A stretch of 64,000 nt of DNA from a bacterium (GTDB lineage: Bacteria > Myxococcota_A > Bradymonadia > UBA7976 > UBA1532): NCBI GenBank assembly GCA_030426085.1, contig JAUHYW010000006.1, positions 62,001 through 126,000 on the forward strand, given 5' to 3'. A program made the translations under genes and the position numbers. How positions within the stretch are numbered: the first letter of the stretch is position 1; each line of letters begins with the position of its first letter. This document shows, piece after piece, positions 14,005 through 22,411 of the stretch. Below the pieces are notes generated by a model. The model saw only the letters and a program-made list of their open reading frames with translations, was not told the origin of the DNA and did no database searches.

Positions 14005-16254
14005 CTAGAAAAGCGTATACGAGAAGCGGAGCTGCACGTCGTGCTCGGTCTGCGTCTCGTCGATGATCGCCGGGTCGAGGGTGAGGTTGTAGCGGTAGTT
14101 CAGCGACGCGAAGCTGGCCAGACGCAGGCTGATCTGGTTGCGCCAGGTGAAGCTGGAGTTCTCCTGGTCGAAGGCGAGCAGGCCGTCGAACTCGGTGCTG
14201 ACGGTGACCCACGGCAGCGGGCGGGCGAAGCCGACGATGGTGCCCTCGACGCCGGTGACGTAGCTGTCCTCGACGAGCTCGTAGGCGTAGACGGCGAGCA
14301 CCCGGTCGGGGTCGTCGGCGGTGGGGTCGGGGCGGCTCTGGCGGGCGCCGTAGGTGCGCAGGCCGTTGGCCAGGGTCTGGCGGGCGCCGAGGCCGAGGCG
14401 CAGGTCGAGCTCGATGGTGCGCTTGCGCAGCACCCGGAAGTTGCCGCCCGACCCCTGGCGGAGCTGGAGCGGGGCGAATGAGCCGCCGAGCTCGAGGCGG
14501 TCGACCTCTTCGGCGGCGTCCCGGTCGACGTCGATGAGCGTCTGGGGGCCGTCGGGGCCGTCGACGACCCGGGTCGAGCAGGGCGCGGCGAGGCCGCCGT
14601 CGGGGCCGGGGGGGCAGACGTAGGCCGGGTTGGCGATGGCCTGATGCCGGGTGAGCAGGCTGGTCTCGGCGCCGGCCCGGGCGTAGGGGCCGAACCAGGG
14701 CACGACGACGTAGGTGTAGATGGTGTGGGCGAAGAGCCGGTCGGCGTCGTTGGTGAAGTAGTCGTCCTCGGGGGCCCGGGTCTGCTCTTCTTCGAGCTCG
14801 AGCCGGGTGTGCCACAGGTGGGCGTCCTCACGGTAGGTGAGCGATCCGTCGAAGAAGACGCTGGCCCCGTAGCTGGTGCCCTGCTGCTGCTCGGCCTGAT
14901 CGGTGTCGTTGAAGACGACGCTGCCGCCGACAACGCCCCGCAGGGTCCAGGTCTGATCCCGGTCGACGGTCTGGCTGGGGTCGACCTCGCCGGCCCCGAG
15001 GAACTCGCCGGTGTCGCCGTCGAGCACGAGGGTGAAGCGGCTGGCCTCGCCGGGCACGAGGCGCACGGTGGCGAAGTCGGTGCGGTCGCGGTAGGTGCCG
15101 CCCGAGCGGATGATCTTGTACAGGCCGGGCGGCAGCACCCACACCCGCACCTTCTCGCCCTGCTGCTCGTCGGCCCCGAAGCCGATGCCGTAGTCCTCCC
15201 GGTTGTCCATGCGGATCAGCTCGTAGGTGCCCCGGAAGGGCACGAACTGCTCGTCGACGACGTCGATCTGGAGGGTGGCCCAGGTGGGCGGCACGATGGC
15301 GGTGCGGCCGTCGTCGACCTGCACCCGGGTCCTGATCTGCTGGGCGAGGGTGCCGGTGCCGAAGCGCACGTCGTAGGTGCCGGGCCGCAGCACGATGCGG
15401 GCCCCCGGGCGGCCCTCGGCGACGGCGTCGCCGCTCTCGGCGTCGTAGACCGCGACCGGCGGCTCCTGGCGGGTGGCGGAGAGCGCGGGCACGTAGATCG
15501 CGCCGAAGCCGACGCCCATCGGGGTGGGGTCGGCGTGCACCCCGGGCAGGTCGTTGAGCGGGTCTTCGGGGCGCCAGCGGATGGCGCCGGGCTCGGCCGG
15601 CGCGGGGGCCTCTTCGGGCTCCTCCATGCGGGCGAGCCGGGGGGTCTCGGGGGCGTCGAGGTACTGCGCGAGGTCGTCGAGCGCGAGGTCGAACTGCGCT
15701 TGCAGCATCTCGCTGAGCGCGCGCACCGTCGAGCGGGTGCTGCCCTCCCCGACCTCGCCCACCGGGCGCCGGGCGTCGAACTGGTAGGTCCAGACGAGCG
15801 CGTCGTCCTTGAACCGCACCAGCCGGAAGCTCATCGAGAGCCGGGCCAGCGCCTGGTCGCCGGCCTGCACCTGCTCGATGGCCTCGACCTCGGCGCTGAG
15901 GGTGTAGTCGGCCGGGATCTGGGAGACCTCTTCGTCGACCTGCTTGACGAGGTTCGAGGCCCGCAGGTGGTCGATGATCAGGGCGGTGATCATCTTCTGG
16001 GGGCGCTCGCTCCACCGCCGGGCGCGGTCGTAGCGCAGCTCGTGGGTGTCGGGCCGCAGCACGATCTCCGAGCGGCGGTAGCTCTCCCGCAGGTCGACCT
16101 CCCGGACCCGGATGGTGGCCGGGCGGGGCTCTTCGAAGCGCCCCTGGTCGGCGGGGTAGGTCAGGGTGTAGTAGCTGCGGGTCGCCGGGCCGTTGCAGCC
16201 CCACAGGACCAGCCCGCAGGCCGCCCCGAGCAGCAGCAGGATCGGGCGCATCAT
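14005..16254 (-). CDS. MCE-transporter auxiliary lipoprotein fused to a predicted outer-membrane beta-barrel
   Basis: 749 residues. A lipoprotein signal (LLLLGAACGLVLWGC) leads into an ABC-transporter auxiliary domain (PqiC/DUF330 type) at about 25-210: RSYYTLTYPAD, TIRVREVDLRESYRRSEIVLR, ITALIIDHLRASNLV. About 250-430 is a PEGA-like beta region. From about 430 to the end there are alternating amphipathic strands with aromatic girdles (FTWRNQISLRLASFASLNYRY), closing with DVQLRFSYTLF. A terminal Phe is the classic outer-membrane barrel signature. Its ATG overlaps the MCE gene's TGA by 4 bp. Normal auxiliary lipoproteins are about 200 residues, so the fusion is unusual. Confidence 0.78.
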   Translation of the reverse strand: MMRPILLLLGAACGLVLWGCNGPATRSYYTLTYPADQGRFEEPRPATIRVREVDLRESYRRSEIVLRPDTHELRYDRARRWSERPQKMITALIIDHLRASNLVKQVDEEVSQIPADYTLSAEVEAIEQVQAGDQALARLSMSFRLVRFKDDALVWTYQFDARRPVGEVGEGSTRSTVRALSEMLQAQFDLALDDLAQYLDAPETPRLARMEEPEEAPAPAEPGAIRWRPEDPLNDLPGVHADPTPMGVGFGAIYVPALSATRQEPPVAVYDAESGDAVAEGRPGARIVLRPGTYDVRFGTGTLAQQIRTRVQVDDGRTAIVPPTWATLQIDVVDEQFVPFRGTYELIRMDNREDYGIGFGADEQQGEKVRVWVLPPGLYKIIRSGGTYRDRTDFATVRLVPGEASRFTLVLDGDTGEFLGAGEVDPSQTVDRDQTWTLRGVVGGSVVFNDTDQAEQQQGTSYGASVFFDGSLTYREDAHLWHTRLELEEEQTRAPEDDYFTNDADRLFAHTIYTYVVVPWFGPYARAGAETSLLTRHQAIANPAYVCPPGPDGGLAAPCSTRVVDGPDGPQTLIDVDRDAAEEVDRLELGGSFAPLQLRQGSGGNFRVLRKRTIELDLRLGLGARQTLANGLRTYGARQSRPDPTADDPDRVLAVYAYELVEDSYVTGVEGTIVGFARPLPWVTVSTEFDGLLAFDQENSSFTWRNQISLRLASFASLNYRYNLTLDPAIIDETQTEHDVQLRFSYTLF

Positions 16255-17231
16255 GGGCTCTCCCCGTCGCCGAGCAGCAGCAGCGACGGGTCCTCGCGCA
16301 CCCGGCGGGAGAAGTCGCTGAGGTTCTCGGCGGTCTCGCGCAGGAAGCCGAACGCCTCGACCAGATCTTCACGGCTCTGGCGCACCAGCAGGCCGGTGTG
16401 GTCGATCAGGGGCAGGGCGCCGACCAGCGCGTCGTTGGCGCTCATCATCATCGCGTCGGCCGAGGCCAGGGTCGCGTCGAGGTTCTCTCGGGTGCCATCG
16501 AGCCGGCTGAGCAGCCGGGTGAGCGCCTGCAGGCTGCGGTCGATGCCGGGGGCGGCCCGGGCGAGCAGGCCGTTGGTGGTCTCGGCGATGTCGGCCACCT
16601 CGCCGGTGAGCCGCTCGGCCTCGGCGACCAGCCCCCGCATGGCGACCCGGTTCTCGGTGACGGTGGAGTCGAGGGTCTCGAGCAGGCGGTCGGTGCGGTC
16701 GAGGATCGAGGCCAGCCGGTCCTTCATCTCGGGCGAGAGCAGGTCGTTGACCCGGTCGACGGTGGTCGAGACCTTGTCGGCGATCTCGCCGGCCCGGTTG
16801 GTCAGCTCGTCGATGCCCGACGATCCGGGCGGGATGCGGCCGCCGGGTTCCCGCAGGCCGGACGCGCGGGTGCCCCGGGTCAGCTCGATGTACTTGAGCC
16901 CGGTGATGCCCATCGAGCCGAGGTTGGCCTGGGAGTCCTTGGCGACGGGGGTGTCGGCGGTGAGGCTGACCCCGACCTCGATGACCGACATGTCGTCGGG
17001 CGCGATGCGGATGAACTCGACCCGCCCGACCCGGATGCCGGAGTACTTCACCGGCGAGCCGACCTCGAGGCCCGACAGCGAGACGGCGCCCTCGGAATAG
17101 CGGATGGTGTATTCATCGCGCTCCTCGCCCAGCCGGGCGCCGGCGAGCGCGATCAAGCCCCCGACCATCACCAGCAGCCCCAGGCCGACGAAGGCCCCGA
17201 GCCGCACTTTCTGCGCGCGGGTCGCGGCCAC
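16251..17231 (-). CDS. mlaD: MCE (MlaD-type) substrate-binding protein
   Basis: A 326-residue protein with one N-terminal membrane anchor (VRLGAFVGLGLLVMVGGLIALAG). An MCE domain follows at about 40-120, with GAVSLSGLEVGSPVKYSGIR and GSMGITGLKYIELTRGTR. A long helical segment (130-326) with heptad-like spacing suits a periplasmic needle or hexamer. Homologues bind phospholipid or other lipids in the periplasm as part of Mla/Mce transporters. The GTG start lies 2 bp after the ATPase stop, and its stop overlaps the auxiliary lipoprotein start, so the two are translationally coupled. Confidence 0.93.
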   Translation of the reverse strand: MAATRAQKVRLGAFVGLGLLVMVGGLIALAGARLGEERDEYTIRYSEGAVSLSGLEVGSPVKYSGIRVGRVEFIRIAPDDMSVIEVGVSLTADTPVAKDSQANLGSMGITGLKYIELTRGTRASGLREPGGRIPPGSSGIDELTNRAGEIADKVSTTVDRVNDLLSPEMKDRLASILDRTDRLLETLDSTVTENRVAMRGLVAEAERLTGEVADIAETTNGLLARAAPGIDRSLQALTRLLSRLDGTRENLDATLASADAMMMSANDALVGALPLIDHTGLLVRQSREDLVEAFGFLRETAENLSDFSRRVREDPSLLLLGDGESP

Positions 17232-17233
17232 CG

Positions 17234-18025
17234 CTAACCCCCCGCCGCCAGCGCTTCGAGCGCCGTCTGGGGCCCCCGCATCTCGCCGGCGGCCTGCCGG
17301 GCGAAGAAGGCGCGGACCTCGTCTTCACCGCTGTACTTGAGATCGTCGAGGGTGCCGTCGGCGATGGGCACCCCTTCGGCCAGATAGATCAGCTTGTCGC
17401 TGATGCGCTCGATGGACAGCAGCTCGTGGGTCACCACCACCACCGCCATGCCGAAGCGGTCGCGCAGGCGCATGAGCAGCTCGTCGAGCTCGGCGCTGGT
17501 GAGCGGGTCGAGGCCGGCCCCGGGCTCGTCGCAGAAGAGCAGCTCGGGGTCGAGGGCCAGCGCCCGGGCGAGCGCGGCCCGCTTGCGCATGCCGCCCGAC
17601 AGCTCGGAGGGCAGCAGGTGCTCGGCGTGGGTCAGCTCGACGGCGGCGAGCTTGAGCCGCACCATCTCGTTGATGACCGACTCCGGCAGGTCGGTGTGCT
17701 CGCGCATGGGCAGGGCCACGTTCTCCCCGATGGTGATGGAGCCGAGCAGCGCCCCGTATTGGAACAGCACCCCGATGCGGGTCAGCAGCGCGGTGCGCTC
17801 GGCGCCGTCGAGCTGGTCGAGGCGCTGGCCGAGCATCTCGATCTCGCCGTCCATGGGCCGCAGCAGCCCGATGCAGCACTTGAGCAGGGTCGACTTGCCG
17901 CAGCCCGAGCCGCCGAGGATGACCCGGATCTCGCCGGTCTCGACGGTCAGGTCGACGTCTTTGAGGATGACCTTTTCGCCGTAGCCTGCTTTGAGGCCCC
18001 GGACGCTCAGCGCGATCTCGGGCAA
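17234..18025 (-). CDS. mlaF: MlaF-type ABC transporter ATPase
   Basis: 263 residues. Walker A is GGSGCGKSTLL, the signature is LSGGMRKRAALARAL, and Walker B with catalytic Glu is ELLFCDEPGAGLDP, followed by the switch His in VVVTHE. The Q-loop LFQYGALLGSITIGENV and the GMRKR variant of the signature are typical of MCE-transporter ATPases. The start codon is TTG at 18025, with GAGGGGGAG upstream on the minus strand. It powers lipid movement with the permease encoded just upstream. Confidence 0.95.
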   Translation of the reverse strand: MPEIALSVRGLKAGYGEKVILKDVDLTVETGEIRVILGGSGCGKSTLLKCCIGLLRPMDGEIEMLGQRLDQLDGAERTALLTRIGVLFQYGALLGSITIGENVALPMREHTDLPESVINEMVRLKLAAVELTHAEHLLPSELSGGMRKRAALARALALDPELLFCDEPGAGLDPLTSAELDELLMRLRDRFGMAVVVVTHELLSIERISDKLIYLAEGVPIADGTLDDLKYSGEDEVRAFFARQAAGEMRGPQTALEALAAGG

Positions 18026-18092
18026 CCGCTCTCTCCCCCTCGGCGCACGGTGTACAAGAGTAGCCGACTCCCCCGGCGGTCTCGGCGCGCGC

Positions 18093-19217
18093 TCACAACA
18101 CGATGTAGAAGAGCACGCTGAACAGGCAGTCGGCCACGATGATGTAGAAGATCGAGGCCACCACCGAGGCGGTCGTCGTGCGGCCGACCTCGCTGGCCCC
18201 GCCCCGCACCCGGAAGCCGTAGAACAGCCCGATCAAGCCGATGCCATAGGCGAACGCGACGCTCTTGATGAGCCCCGAGATCAGATCCCAGGGGGCGATC
18301 GCCTCGAGCATCTTGTTGAGGAAGGCGTTCCACGCGATGTCGAGATAGCCCACCCCCACCAGGAAGCCGCCGAGGCAGCCGAGCAGGTCGGCGAGCACGG
18401 TCAGCAGCGGCACCATCATGATGATGGCCAGCAGGCGGGGCACGGCCAGATAGCGGGTGGGCTCCATGCCCATGACGGTGAGCGCGTCGACCTCCTCGCT
18501 GACCTTCATCGTCGCGATCTCGGCGGCGATGGACGAGCCCGACCGGCCGGCGACGAGGATGGCGGTCATCAGCGGGCCCATCTCGCGCACCATCGAGACG
18601 GCGGTGAGGTCGGCGACGAAGATGGCCGCCCCGAACTGCCGGAGCTGGTGGGCCGACTGGAAGGCGACGGTCAACCCCACGAGGAACGTGATCAGGCCGA
18701 CGATGCCCAGCGCCCGGGAGCCGATGTCGATCGACTGCTCGGCGAGCGCGCCCCACCGCATGCGGCGCGGCGCGCGCAGGGCGTCGAAGATGGCGAAGGT
18801 GGCGTCGGCGGCGAGCTGCAGGAAGTCGACGAAGCCCTGGAAGCCGCCGATGACGGTGCCCCCGGTGCTCTCGAGCAGGCCCGGCGGCGCGGGCTTGGGC
18901 TGGGGGTCGGGGCCGAGGCGGAAGGTGGCCAGCGCCCGCCGGGCCTGCTCGCTGAGCGGGTCGGTGACGAGGCGGCCGCCGGCGTCCCGGGCCCGGCGGA
19001 AGGCGGTGACCATCGCGGCGACGGCGGCGCTGTCCATGGCCTCGACGTCGGCGAGGTCGAGGGTCAGCGTGGCCCCCGATCCGGGCGCGTGGCGCTCGAG
19101 CAGGGTGTTCAGCTCGGCGACGACGTCCCGCCGCACCGGGCCGGCGAGGCGCAGGGTCGCGGCCGACGGGTCGCCGTCGAGTTCGAACCGCAGGCTGGTT
19201 TTGGGGGAGGTCTTCAC
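18093..19217 (-). CDS. mlaE: MlaE-type permease with N-terminal STAS domain
   Basis: A 374-residue inner-membrane permease. Residues about 5-105 form a STAS/MlaB-like domain (LTLDLADVEAMDSAAVAAMV), so the separate MlaB subunit of E. coli is fused here. The MlaE domain (about 130-374) shows the characteristic EIATMKVSEEVDALTVMGM loop and four to six membrane segments. The GTG start is at 19217. It is first in the minus-strand operon permease-ATPase-MCE-lipoprotein. No separate MlaC or MlaA gene is present. Confidence 0.94.
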   Translation of the reverse strand: MKTSPKTSLRFELDGDPSAATLRLAGPVRRDVVAELNTLLERHAPGSGATLTLDLADVEAMDSAAVAAMVTAFRRARDAGGRLVTDPLSEQARRALATFRLGPDPQPKPAPPGLLESTGGTVIGGFQGFVDFLQLAADATFAIFDALRAPRRMRWGALAEQSIDIGSRALGIVGLITFLVGLTVAFQSAHQLRQFGAAIFVADLTAVSMVREMGPLMTAILVAGRSGSSIAAEIATMKVSEEVDALTVMGMEPTRYLAVPRLLAIIMMVPLLTVLADLLGCLGGFLVGVGYLDIAWNAFLNKMLEAIAPWDLISGLIKSVAFAYGIGLIGLFYGFRVRGGASEVGRTTTASVVASIFYIIVADCLFSVLFYIVL

Positions 19218-21883: not shown

Positions 21884-22411
21884 ATGATCGGCATCCCCCT
21901 CGGTCTCGCGGTCGGCAACGCCGCCGAATGGGCCATCCACAAGCACATCCTCCACGGCCGGGGCCGCGACAAATCGTCGTTCTGGGCCTTTCACTGGCAC
22001 GATCATCACCGCAATTCGAGAAGGGACGGTCATCGGGACGAGGATTACCGGCGTCCGTGGTGGGCCGCACGGGGCCAGCGGCGAGAGGCCGTCGCCCTGA
22101 CCGCGGCGTCCGCGGCGGTGGCGCCGCTCTTCCCGGTCGCGCCCTTCTTCACGGCCACCTTGTGGTACTGCTGCGCACGGTACTACAGGGTGCACAAGCG
22201 GGCTCACCTCGACCCCGAGTTCGCCCGGGAACACCTGCCGTGGCACTACGATCACCACATGGGCCCCGACCAGAACGCCAACTGGTGCGTGACCCGGCCG
22301 TGGTTCGATCACCTCATGGGCACCCGCAAGCCGTACCTGGGCACCGCCCGGGCGCTGAAAGGGCGCCGTCGGGTCGCTCGGCGGCGGTCGACGACGGCCG
22401 ACAACGGCTGA
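21884..22411 (+). CDS. Fatty acid hydroxylase / sterol desaturase-like di-iron membrane protein
   Basis: 175 residues. Histidine boxes of the membrane di-iron hydroxylase superfamily are present: HKHILH near residue 20, FHWHDHHR near 37-44, and HYDHHMG near 123-129, followed by the conserved tail RPWFDHLMGT. One central hydrophobic span (VAPLFPVAPFFTATLWYCC) lies between the boxes. Members hydroxylate or desaturate lipids such as fatty acids, sterols or carotenoids. This is a short member, and the substrate cannot be told. AGAGAGG precedes the ATG. It is divergent from the TetR gene, which probably controls it. Confidence 0.85.
   Translation: MIGIPLGLAVGNAAEWAIHKHILHGRGRDKSSFWAFHWHDHHRNSRRDGHRDEDYRRPWWAARGQRREAVALTAASAAVAPLFPVAPFFTATLWYCCARYYRVHKRAHLDPEFAREHLPWHYDHHMGPDQNANWCVTRPWFDHLMGTRKPYLGTARALKGRRRVARRRSTTADNG

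Follow-up and report, generated by a model that had tools for sequence, protein, structure and literature searches.

A stretch of 64,000 nucleotides from a bacterium of the class Bradymonadia (contig JAUHYW010000006.1, positions 62,001 to 126,000; hereafter the window) contains an MCE-type operon whose last gene encodes a lipoprotein of 749 residues, in which a PqiC-like domain is followed by a beta-rich module and a predicted outer-membrane barrel. The four genes, encoding a STAS-MlaE permease, an MlaF-type ATPase of the ATP-binding cassette (ABC) class, an MlaD-type MCE protein and this fusion lipoprotein, lie close together on the minus strand. In our judgement, the operon probably encodes an MCE transporter of the Mpc (Mla-Pqi chimeric) type to which an outer-membrane barrel subunit has been added, here by fusion to the lipoprotein. 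The gene content, the domain order, their conservation, and the occurrence of split as well as fused forms can be seen directly in the sequences compared below.

To characterize the C-terminal region (residues 431-749), the alternation of hydrophobic and polar columns was measured on an alignment of the barrel region (A2) and compared with column shuffles. A2 contained 70 of 76 rows; two rows cut at contig ends (L069 and L117), one with a very long branch (L126), and three with C-terminal extensions (L135-L137) were left out. The alternation in these 70 relatives reached a z of 6.6, versus 4.4 for the positive control of 25 BamA-type barrels from the same genome group. In a run with 1000 column shuffles, the C-terminal part surpassed every one of them. 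The non-barrel controls gave values of 0.3 (middle module), -0.2 (lipoprotein domain), and -0.8 (MlaD). Thus, the ~320 C-terminal residues of amphipathic strands described in an earlier note on this DNA were borne out. Stand-alone relatives of the barrel were proteins of 340-440 residues with signal-peptide-like starts, and an export signal and a C-terminal beta-signal, both expected of an outer-membrane barrel, were present. Three Pfam families, DUF3078 (PF11276), OMP_b-brl (PF13505), and DUF481 (PF04338), showed weak similarity to the barrel family, matching 23, 18, and 10 of the 70 members at E-values up to 0.1, respectively. L131 was the sole one among the members shown singly to reach the DUF3078 cut-off (26.7 versus 25 bits), and L087 scored 27.1 bits against a cut-off of 28.7 for OMP_b-brl.

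Several results weigh against a barrel. The Pfam barrel matches were mostly sub-threshold, and the fusion protein itself had no barrel-family match above the cut-off (DUF3078, 16.8 versus 25 bits). A search of PDB sequences with the barrel profile gave no match up to an E-value of 10. AlphaFold was uninformative, with a mean predicted local distance difference test score (pLDDT) of 37.4 and a predicted template modelling score (pTM) of 0.26 for the whole protein (A1, 3 sequences), and 29.6 and 0.30 for the barrel alone (A3, 2 sequences). These uninformative models (pLDDT 37 and 30) and the lack of a passing Pfam barrel match in the query leave some room for a soluble periplasmic beta domain that forms no barrel. 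However, the alternation equals that of the BamA barrels and is absent from the soluble parts of the fusion protein. The size and signal-peptide-like starts of the stand-alone relatives, the C-terminal F/L, and the matches to OMP_b-brl, DUF481, and DUF3078 also argue against a soluble domain, which we regard as very improbable. Judged from these sequence features, residues 431-749 very likely form an outer-membrane barrel, a prediction that we consider well supported. The earlier note proposed that a single chain joins a PqiC-like auxiliary to an outer-membrane-barrel-like domain and that the operon lacks MlaA and MlaC, and the Pfam and alternation results agree with this. Its further idea, that the chain could also be the outer-membrane acceptor of a self-contained lipid path, goes beyond these sequence results.

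To examine the association of the barrel with the lipoprotein, the phylum was searched with the whole fusion protein, and matches were found in 117 of 377 genomes (L065, on the same contig as L035, was left out). Many genomes had separate lipoprotein and module-plus-barrel genes, next to each other at the end of the same operon type. Among the 37 loci examined with flanks, 16 had a single frame and 21 were split. MlaE, MlaF, and MlaD were all upstream in 31 of the 37, and the other six had at least MlaD, five of them being cut by a contig end and the sixth, L097, having no MlaE match. A hydrophobic N-terminus could be selected for the barrel gene in all 21 split loci, where the starts, picked by rule, were offset by -14 to +52 bases relative to the stop of the lipoprotein gene; a 4-base overlap, typical of coupled genes, occurred in nine of them.

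We further searched the phylum (356 genomes) with a lipoprotein-domain profile (A4) at E-values up to 1e-12. It matched 65 genomes, comprising a strong set of 46 (E < 1e-48) and a weaker set of 19 (E from 1e-33 to 1e-13). In the strong set, the barrel was in the same frame in 19 genomes and in the next gene in 24, that is, in 43 of 46, indicating that it is a conserved fifth component of this MCE operon. Since 24 other genomes have both parts as neighbouring genes, the association is real and predates the fusion. In a further genome of the strong set, G182, the lipoprotein and the barrel were at the ends of two separate contigs. Other counts point the other way. G095 and G334 of the strong set had no barrel beside the lipoprotein, nor did any of the 19 weaker-set genomes have a barrel match there. 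The surroundings of two weaker-set genomes, G155 and G141, were fetched and had the order E-F-D-lipoprotein with no barrel. This shows that the E-F-D-lipoprotein core can exist without a barrel. Moreover, nearly all loci behind the A4 profile had been found with the fused protein, which biases the count towards barrels beside the lipoprotein.

Another species of the genus also has the fused frame (residues 7-749 are 83% identical), and the fusion recurs in further genera. An assembly error or read-through was therefore rejected as the cause of the fusion.

To trace the origin of the fusion, a maximum-likelihood tree of the module-plus-barrel was built from 47 of 64 rows, after near-copies, distant rows, and short rows were dropped, and rooted with 11 non-MCE relatives. 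Twelve fused rows fell in one clade (support 100/98), and a larger quick tree of all 64 rows agreed with a single fused clade, indicating that one fusion event accounts for all fused rows except L092. At this locus (L092:4708-7647), an in-frame lipoprotein-barrel lies inside the split clade with a signal-peptide-like stretch between the two parts. The hydropathy of its linker was 1.95, whereas none of 15 other fused loci exceeded 1.21 (three of these had linkers too short to score). L092 may be a transitional fusion, or its stop may have been lost to sequencing error. Besides the window's family, the fused clade includes families from other classes, and a different family of the class to which the window belongs sits in the split clade; transfer from lineage to lineage or an old duplication would explain this mixture. 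The fused clade also contains four paralogs from the window's family that are not part of MCE operons, which suggests that a barrel later departed from the operon. In four barrel paralogs descended from the fused clade (L059:8003-10033, L066, L072, and L074), the PqiC-like domain has been lost and there is an N-terminal stretch rich in Pro and Cys (CxxxC...CPDVFLGN...C...C).

The features of the operon are listed in Table 1. The coordinates and the terminal Phe of the 749-residue protein that the earlier note gave were correct, and its permease-ATPase-MCE-lipoprotein operon without MlaC or MlaA was confirmed by Pfam, which found neither within the operon.

Table 1. Genes of the MCE operon and parts of the fusion lipoprotein, with positions in the window
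Feature	Position	Strand	Evidence
STAS-MlaE permease (MpcE-like), 374 aa	18093..19217	minus	Pfam MlaE 6.1e-75, STAS_2 2.7e-10 (N-terminal); TIGR00056 236 bits versus cut-off 212
MlaF-type ABC ATPase, 263 aa	17234..18025	minus	Pfam ABC_tran 6.8e-30
MlaD-type MCE protein, 326 aa, single MCE domain and long tail	16251..17231	minus	Pfam MlaD 6.8e-16 at 51-120
Fusion lipoprotein, 749 aa, terminal Phe	14005..16254	minus	Sequence; Pfam ABC_trans_aux
Signal peptide and lipobox, Cys20	16195..16254	minus	Sequence
PqiC-like ABC_trans_aux region, residues 1-205	15640..16254	minus	PF03886 1.5e-14 at residues 29-185
Conserved beta-rich periplasmic module with PGxY motifs, residues 238-428	14971..15543	minus	Alignment of module (A6); not confirmed as PEGA
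Predicted outer-membrane beta-barrel, residues 431-749, ~12 strands (profile, by eye)	14008..14964	minus	Alternation z 5.7-6.6; Pfam matches in relatives
C-terminal beta-signal-like strand HDVQLRFSYTLF	14008..14043	minus	F/L as last residue in 58/64 homologues; similar ends in BamA barrels of the same genomes

The N-terminus of the fusion lipoprotein is PqiC-like, as had been proposed. In addition to the PF03886 match, the A4 profile, built from 38 of 39 lipoprotein domains (the short L115 was left out), matched 2iqi (1.9e-12), 13hr_A (2.4e-11), and the PqiC structure 8q2c (3.1e-5) in the PDB, and resembles PqiC, XCC0632, and the 13hr lipoprotein. The lipobox Cys column was at least 90% conserved in A4. 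Beyond ABC_trans_aux, the rest of the 749-residue protein gave no Pfam match above the cut-off. The alignment of the middle module (A6, 41 of 64 available rows) yielded only weak matches, namely Fn3-like families in 13 of the 41 members (best E 0.003) and CarboxypepD_reg in seven (best E 0.0063). This module had been described as PEGA-like linkers; PF08308 (PEGA) matched one member of the 41 (E 0.091), which was not the query, and the PEGA identity of residues 238-428 was rejected. In a plasmid search with the fusion protein, the 143 records found had only short matches, all to the lipoprotein domain, and none covered 80% of the protein.

Similarly, we compared the operon MlaD with solved structures. 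Its family profile aligned over positions 2-318 with chain I of PDB entry 13hr (E 6.6e-43), the tip included. The tip motif SRRVREDPSLLLLG is conserved and reads ISRRLEENPANYLLGR in 13hr chain I versus FSRRVREDPSLLLLGD in the operon protein. The tail matched helical chains as well as 13hr_I in the profile search. The MlaD protein has no barrel of its own and stops after this helical tail. The closest solved structures are the PDB entries 13hr, 13hs, 13hq, and 2iqi. Like the operon, 13hr combines an MCE protein (312 residues, 8 chains listed) with an ABC_trans_aux lipoprotein, both of which match the operon profiles, but its lipoprotein chain has 214 residues and is thus without a barrel.

Among the known systems, the operon is most readily compared with MpcEFDA of Brucella abortus, which consists of a STAS-permease, an ATPase, an MCE protein (331 residues, helical needle), and a PqiC-like lipoprotein, and whose E-F-D-A complex was demonstrated by pull-down (PMC12436622). 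The window operon has STAS-MlaE, an MlaF ATPase, a 326-residue single-MCE protein with a long tail, and a PqiC-like last gene. The two systems share the same four roles, a single-MCE protein of ~330 residues, the lipoprotein gene in last position, and the lack of MlaA. However, the Brucella system, as published, has four genes and no barrel, whereas here the barrel is fused, or is the next gene in split relatives. The window genome also differs in keeping one orphan MlaC.

In Veillonella parvula, MlaEFD has a ten-strand barrel on MlaD; according to PMC10665443, the authors place a barrel on each MlaD and deem a single barrel too narrow for lipid. Both this system and the window operon are MCE systems that lack MlaA and MlaC and bear an outer-membrane barrel, which is on MlaD in the former and on the lipoprotein in the latter. 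A barrel-tailed MlaD of the Veillonella type was rejected for the operon, whose MlaD stops after the helical tail. The PqiC of Escherichia coli is an octameric toroid of ~100 angstrom in the head-group region of the outer membrane that receives the MCE needle. PqiABC thus has the same type of lipoprotein; unlike the operon, it has a PqiA that is no ABC transporter, a PqiB with three MCE domains, and no barrel (PMC10897342). Membership of the Pqi group was rejected because the operon has an ABC permease, an ATPase, and one MCE domain. Membership of the canonical Mla system was also rejected, since MlaC and MlaA are absent from the operon and the genome has no MlaA.

In the literature searched, with subscription papers and preprints thinly covered, no PqiC-like lipoprotein fused to a barrel, or followed by one, was found by title or abstract among the papers listed. 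Within that scope, the statement of the earlier note that it knew of no described fusion of this kind held for the fusion itself. It did not extend to the core, which is that of Mpc (PMC12436622), nor to MCE-barrel fusions at large, as an MlaD-barrel fusion is published for Veillonella (PMC10665443). The four-gene core is known, and the outer-membrane barrel component and the lipoprotein fusion appear to be undescribed.

By analogy with the families named above, the ring, the needle, their docking, the direction, and the substrate can be provisionally sketched. STAS-MlaE and MlaF would form the inner-membrane ABC engine, and MlaD would form an MCE ring plus a long needle spanning the periplasm. 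The PqiC-like domain of the lipoprotein would form a ring beneath the outer membrane that accepts the needle tip, each ring subunit continuing through the beta-rich periplasmic module to a barrel in the outer membrane. The barrel would secure the ring to the outer membrane, and may also thin the bilayer over the needle or open it, allowing phospholipid passage. If the ring is octameric, the fusion would place about eight barrels around a toroid of ~100 angstrom, and by our estimate eight small barrels would fit there.

A more specific proposal, which we put forward tentatively and consider rather unlikely, is that the barrel serves MCE bridges as their long-sought port in the outer membrane. 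About eight lipoprotein subunits, each with its own barrel, would form a ring whose barrels make a crown around the MlaD tip, with phospholipid passing through or between the barrels; the fusion would lock a 1:1 ratio, and the split barrel would be a separate ring-binding subunit. If true, there would be a complete protein-lined inter-membrane route without MlaA or MlaC.

The bridge models published for Pqi and Mpc in PMC12436622 and PMC10897342 stop at a ring of lipoprotein beneath the outer membrane, and the entry or exit of lipid at this membrane is their open step. The barrel occurs with this ring in 43 of the 46 genomes and forms one chain with it in a single clade, which makes it a concrete and testable candidate for the outer-membrane end. 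In the fused form, the partner is given and the ratio is one barrel to each ring subunit, which eases purification and modelling, while the split form permits a barrel-only deletion; with both forms, the need for the barrel and lipid passage become directly testable.

Whether the barrel takes part in lipid passage was weighed with the help of its relatives outside MCE operons. Twenty-six rows were labelled non-MCE, of which 25 were counted, as L099 is the contig break of G182 mentioned above. A gene of cluster c5 was directly downstream of the paralog in 11 of the 25 and one gene away in two. All four c5 members scanned with Pfam matched OmpA, three of them over the cut-off, and one further member matched NCBIfam models of OmpA-type lipoproteins below their cut-offs. 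This recurrence of the beta-rich part and barrel outside MCE operons, in 13 of 25 cases by a cluster of OmpA-type lipoproteins, suggests a general outer-membrane docking module and weighs most in favour of docking or anchoring. It makes anchoring a serious alternative, in which the barrel would passively fix the PqiC-like ring within the outer membrane and have no part in lipid passage. The same is favoured by PqiC and Brucella MpcA, which, as published, function without a barrel. However, the lipoprotein has its own lipid anchor, so that an additional anchor needs a reason, and the barrel is retained in 43 of 46 genomes of the operon type. We rate the passive anchor as a real possibility, somewhat short of an even chance.

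The loci with an OmpA-type, peptidoglycan-binding c5 protein directly downstream were L060, L067, L108, L111, L113, L114, L120, L125, L128, L129, and L130; the module-plus-barrel and the OmpA-type protein are apparently a second, undescribed outer-membrane pair. The paralogs L121, L122, and L130 (and L119) are near a conserved cluster of the families c15, c16, and c17, which by eye are MscS-like, Asp23-like, and sigma-factor-like proteins.

The genome of the window (10.1 Mb, 95% complete, four MlaD matches) was also searched for other partners, considering that the earlier note had named a missed MlaA or MlaC elsewhere as a possible true partner. This concern was borne out only to a small degree, as MlaA (PF04333) had no match in the whole genome at this completeness. 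One strong MlaC (PF05494, 1.0e-30) is present on contig C62, where it overlaps a TolC-like OEP gene (L144:2169-4431), and it speaks for a different outer-membrane partner; a second MlaC match was below the cut-off. It would thus be conceivable that transfer is carried out by the orphan MlaC and the TolC-like protein encoded next to it, or by another porin, and that the fusion is accessory. Against this, no MCE gene was found within the 10 kb fetched around the MlaC-TolC-like pair, the genome lacks MlaA, and the orphan MlaC scored nearer to HpnM (52 bits) than to E. coli MlaC (24.5 bits), both below their cut-offs. We consider a partner elsewhere improbable, and prefer the barrel fused to the lipoprotein as the outer-membrane component of this operon. 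The whole genome contained no second protein with ABC_trans_aux (PF03886).

Two other MCE loci were observed in this genome. Contig C39 (L063:8957-10441) contains a second MlaE-MlaD pair, with a 495-residue MlaD whose tail is beta-rich by eye and Veillonella-like. It looks as if one genome has two barrel solutions, the predicted lipoprotein fusion and the barrel-like MlaD tail of C39. Comparison of the fusion barrel profile with this tail by hhalign detected no relationship (probability 1.9%) in a weak test with a single sequence on one side. Contig C9 (L062:5480-9310) has one more MlaD-type gene, at ~1.5 kb from a gene that resembles LpxB, of the lipid A disaccharide synthase family; the 18 kb fetched there gave no MlaE or MlaF match. 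In the window itself, positions 21884-22408 encode a 175-residue protein that is divergent from a TetR gene and has a weak FA_hydroxylase match below the cut-off; it is possibly a lipid-modifying enzyme.

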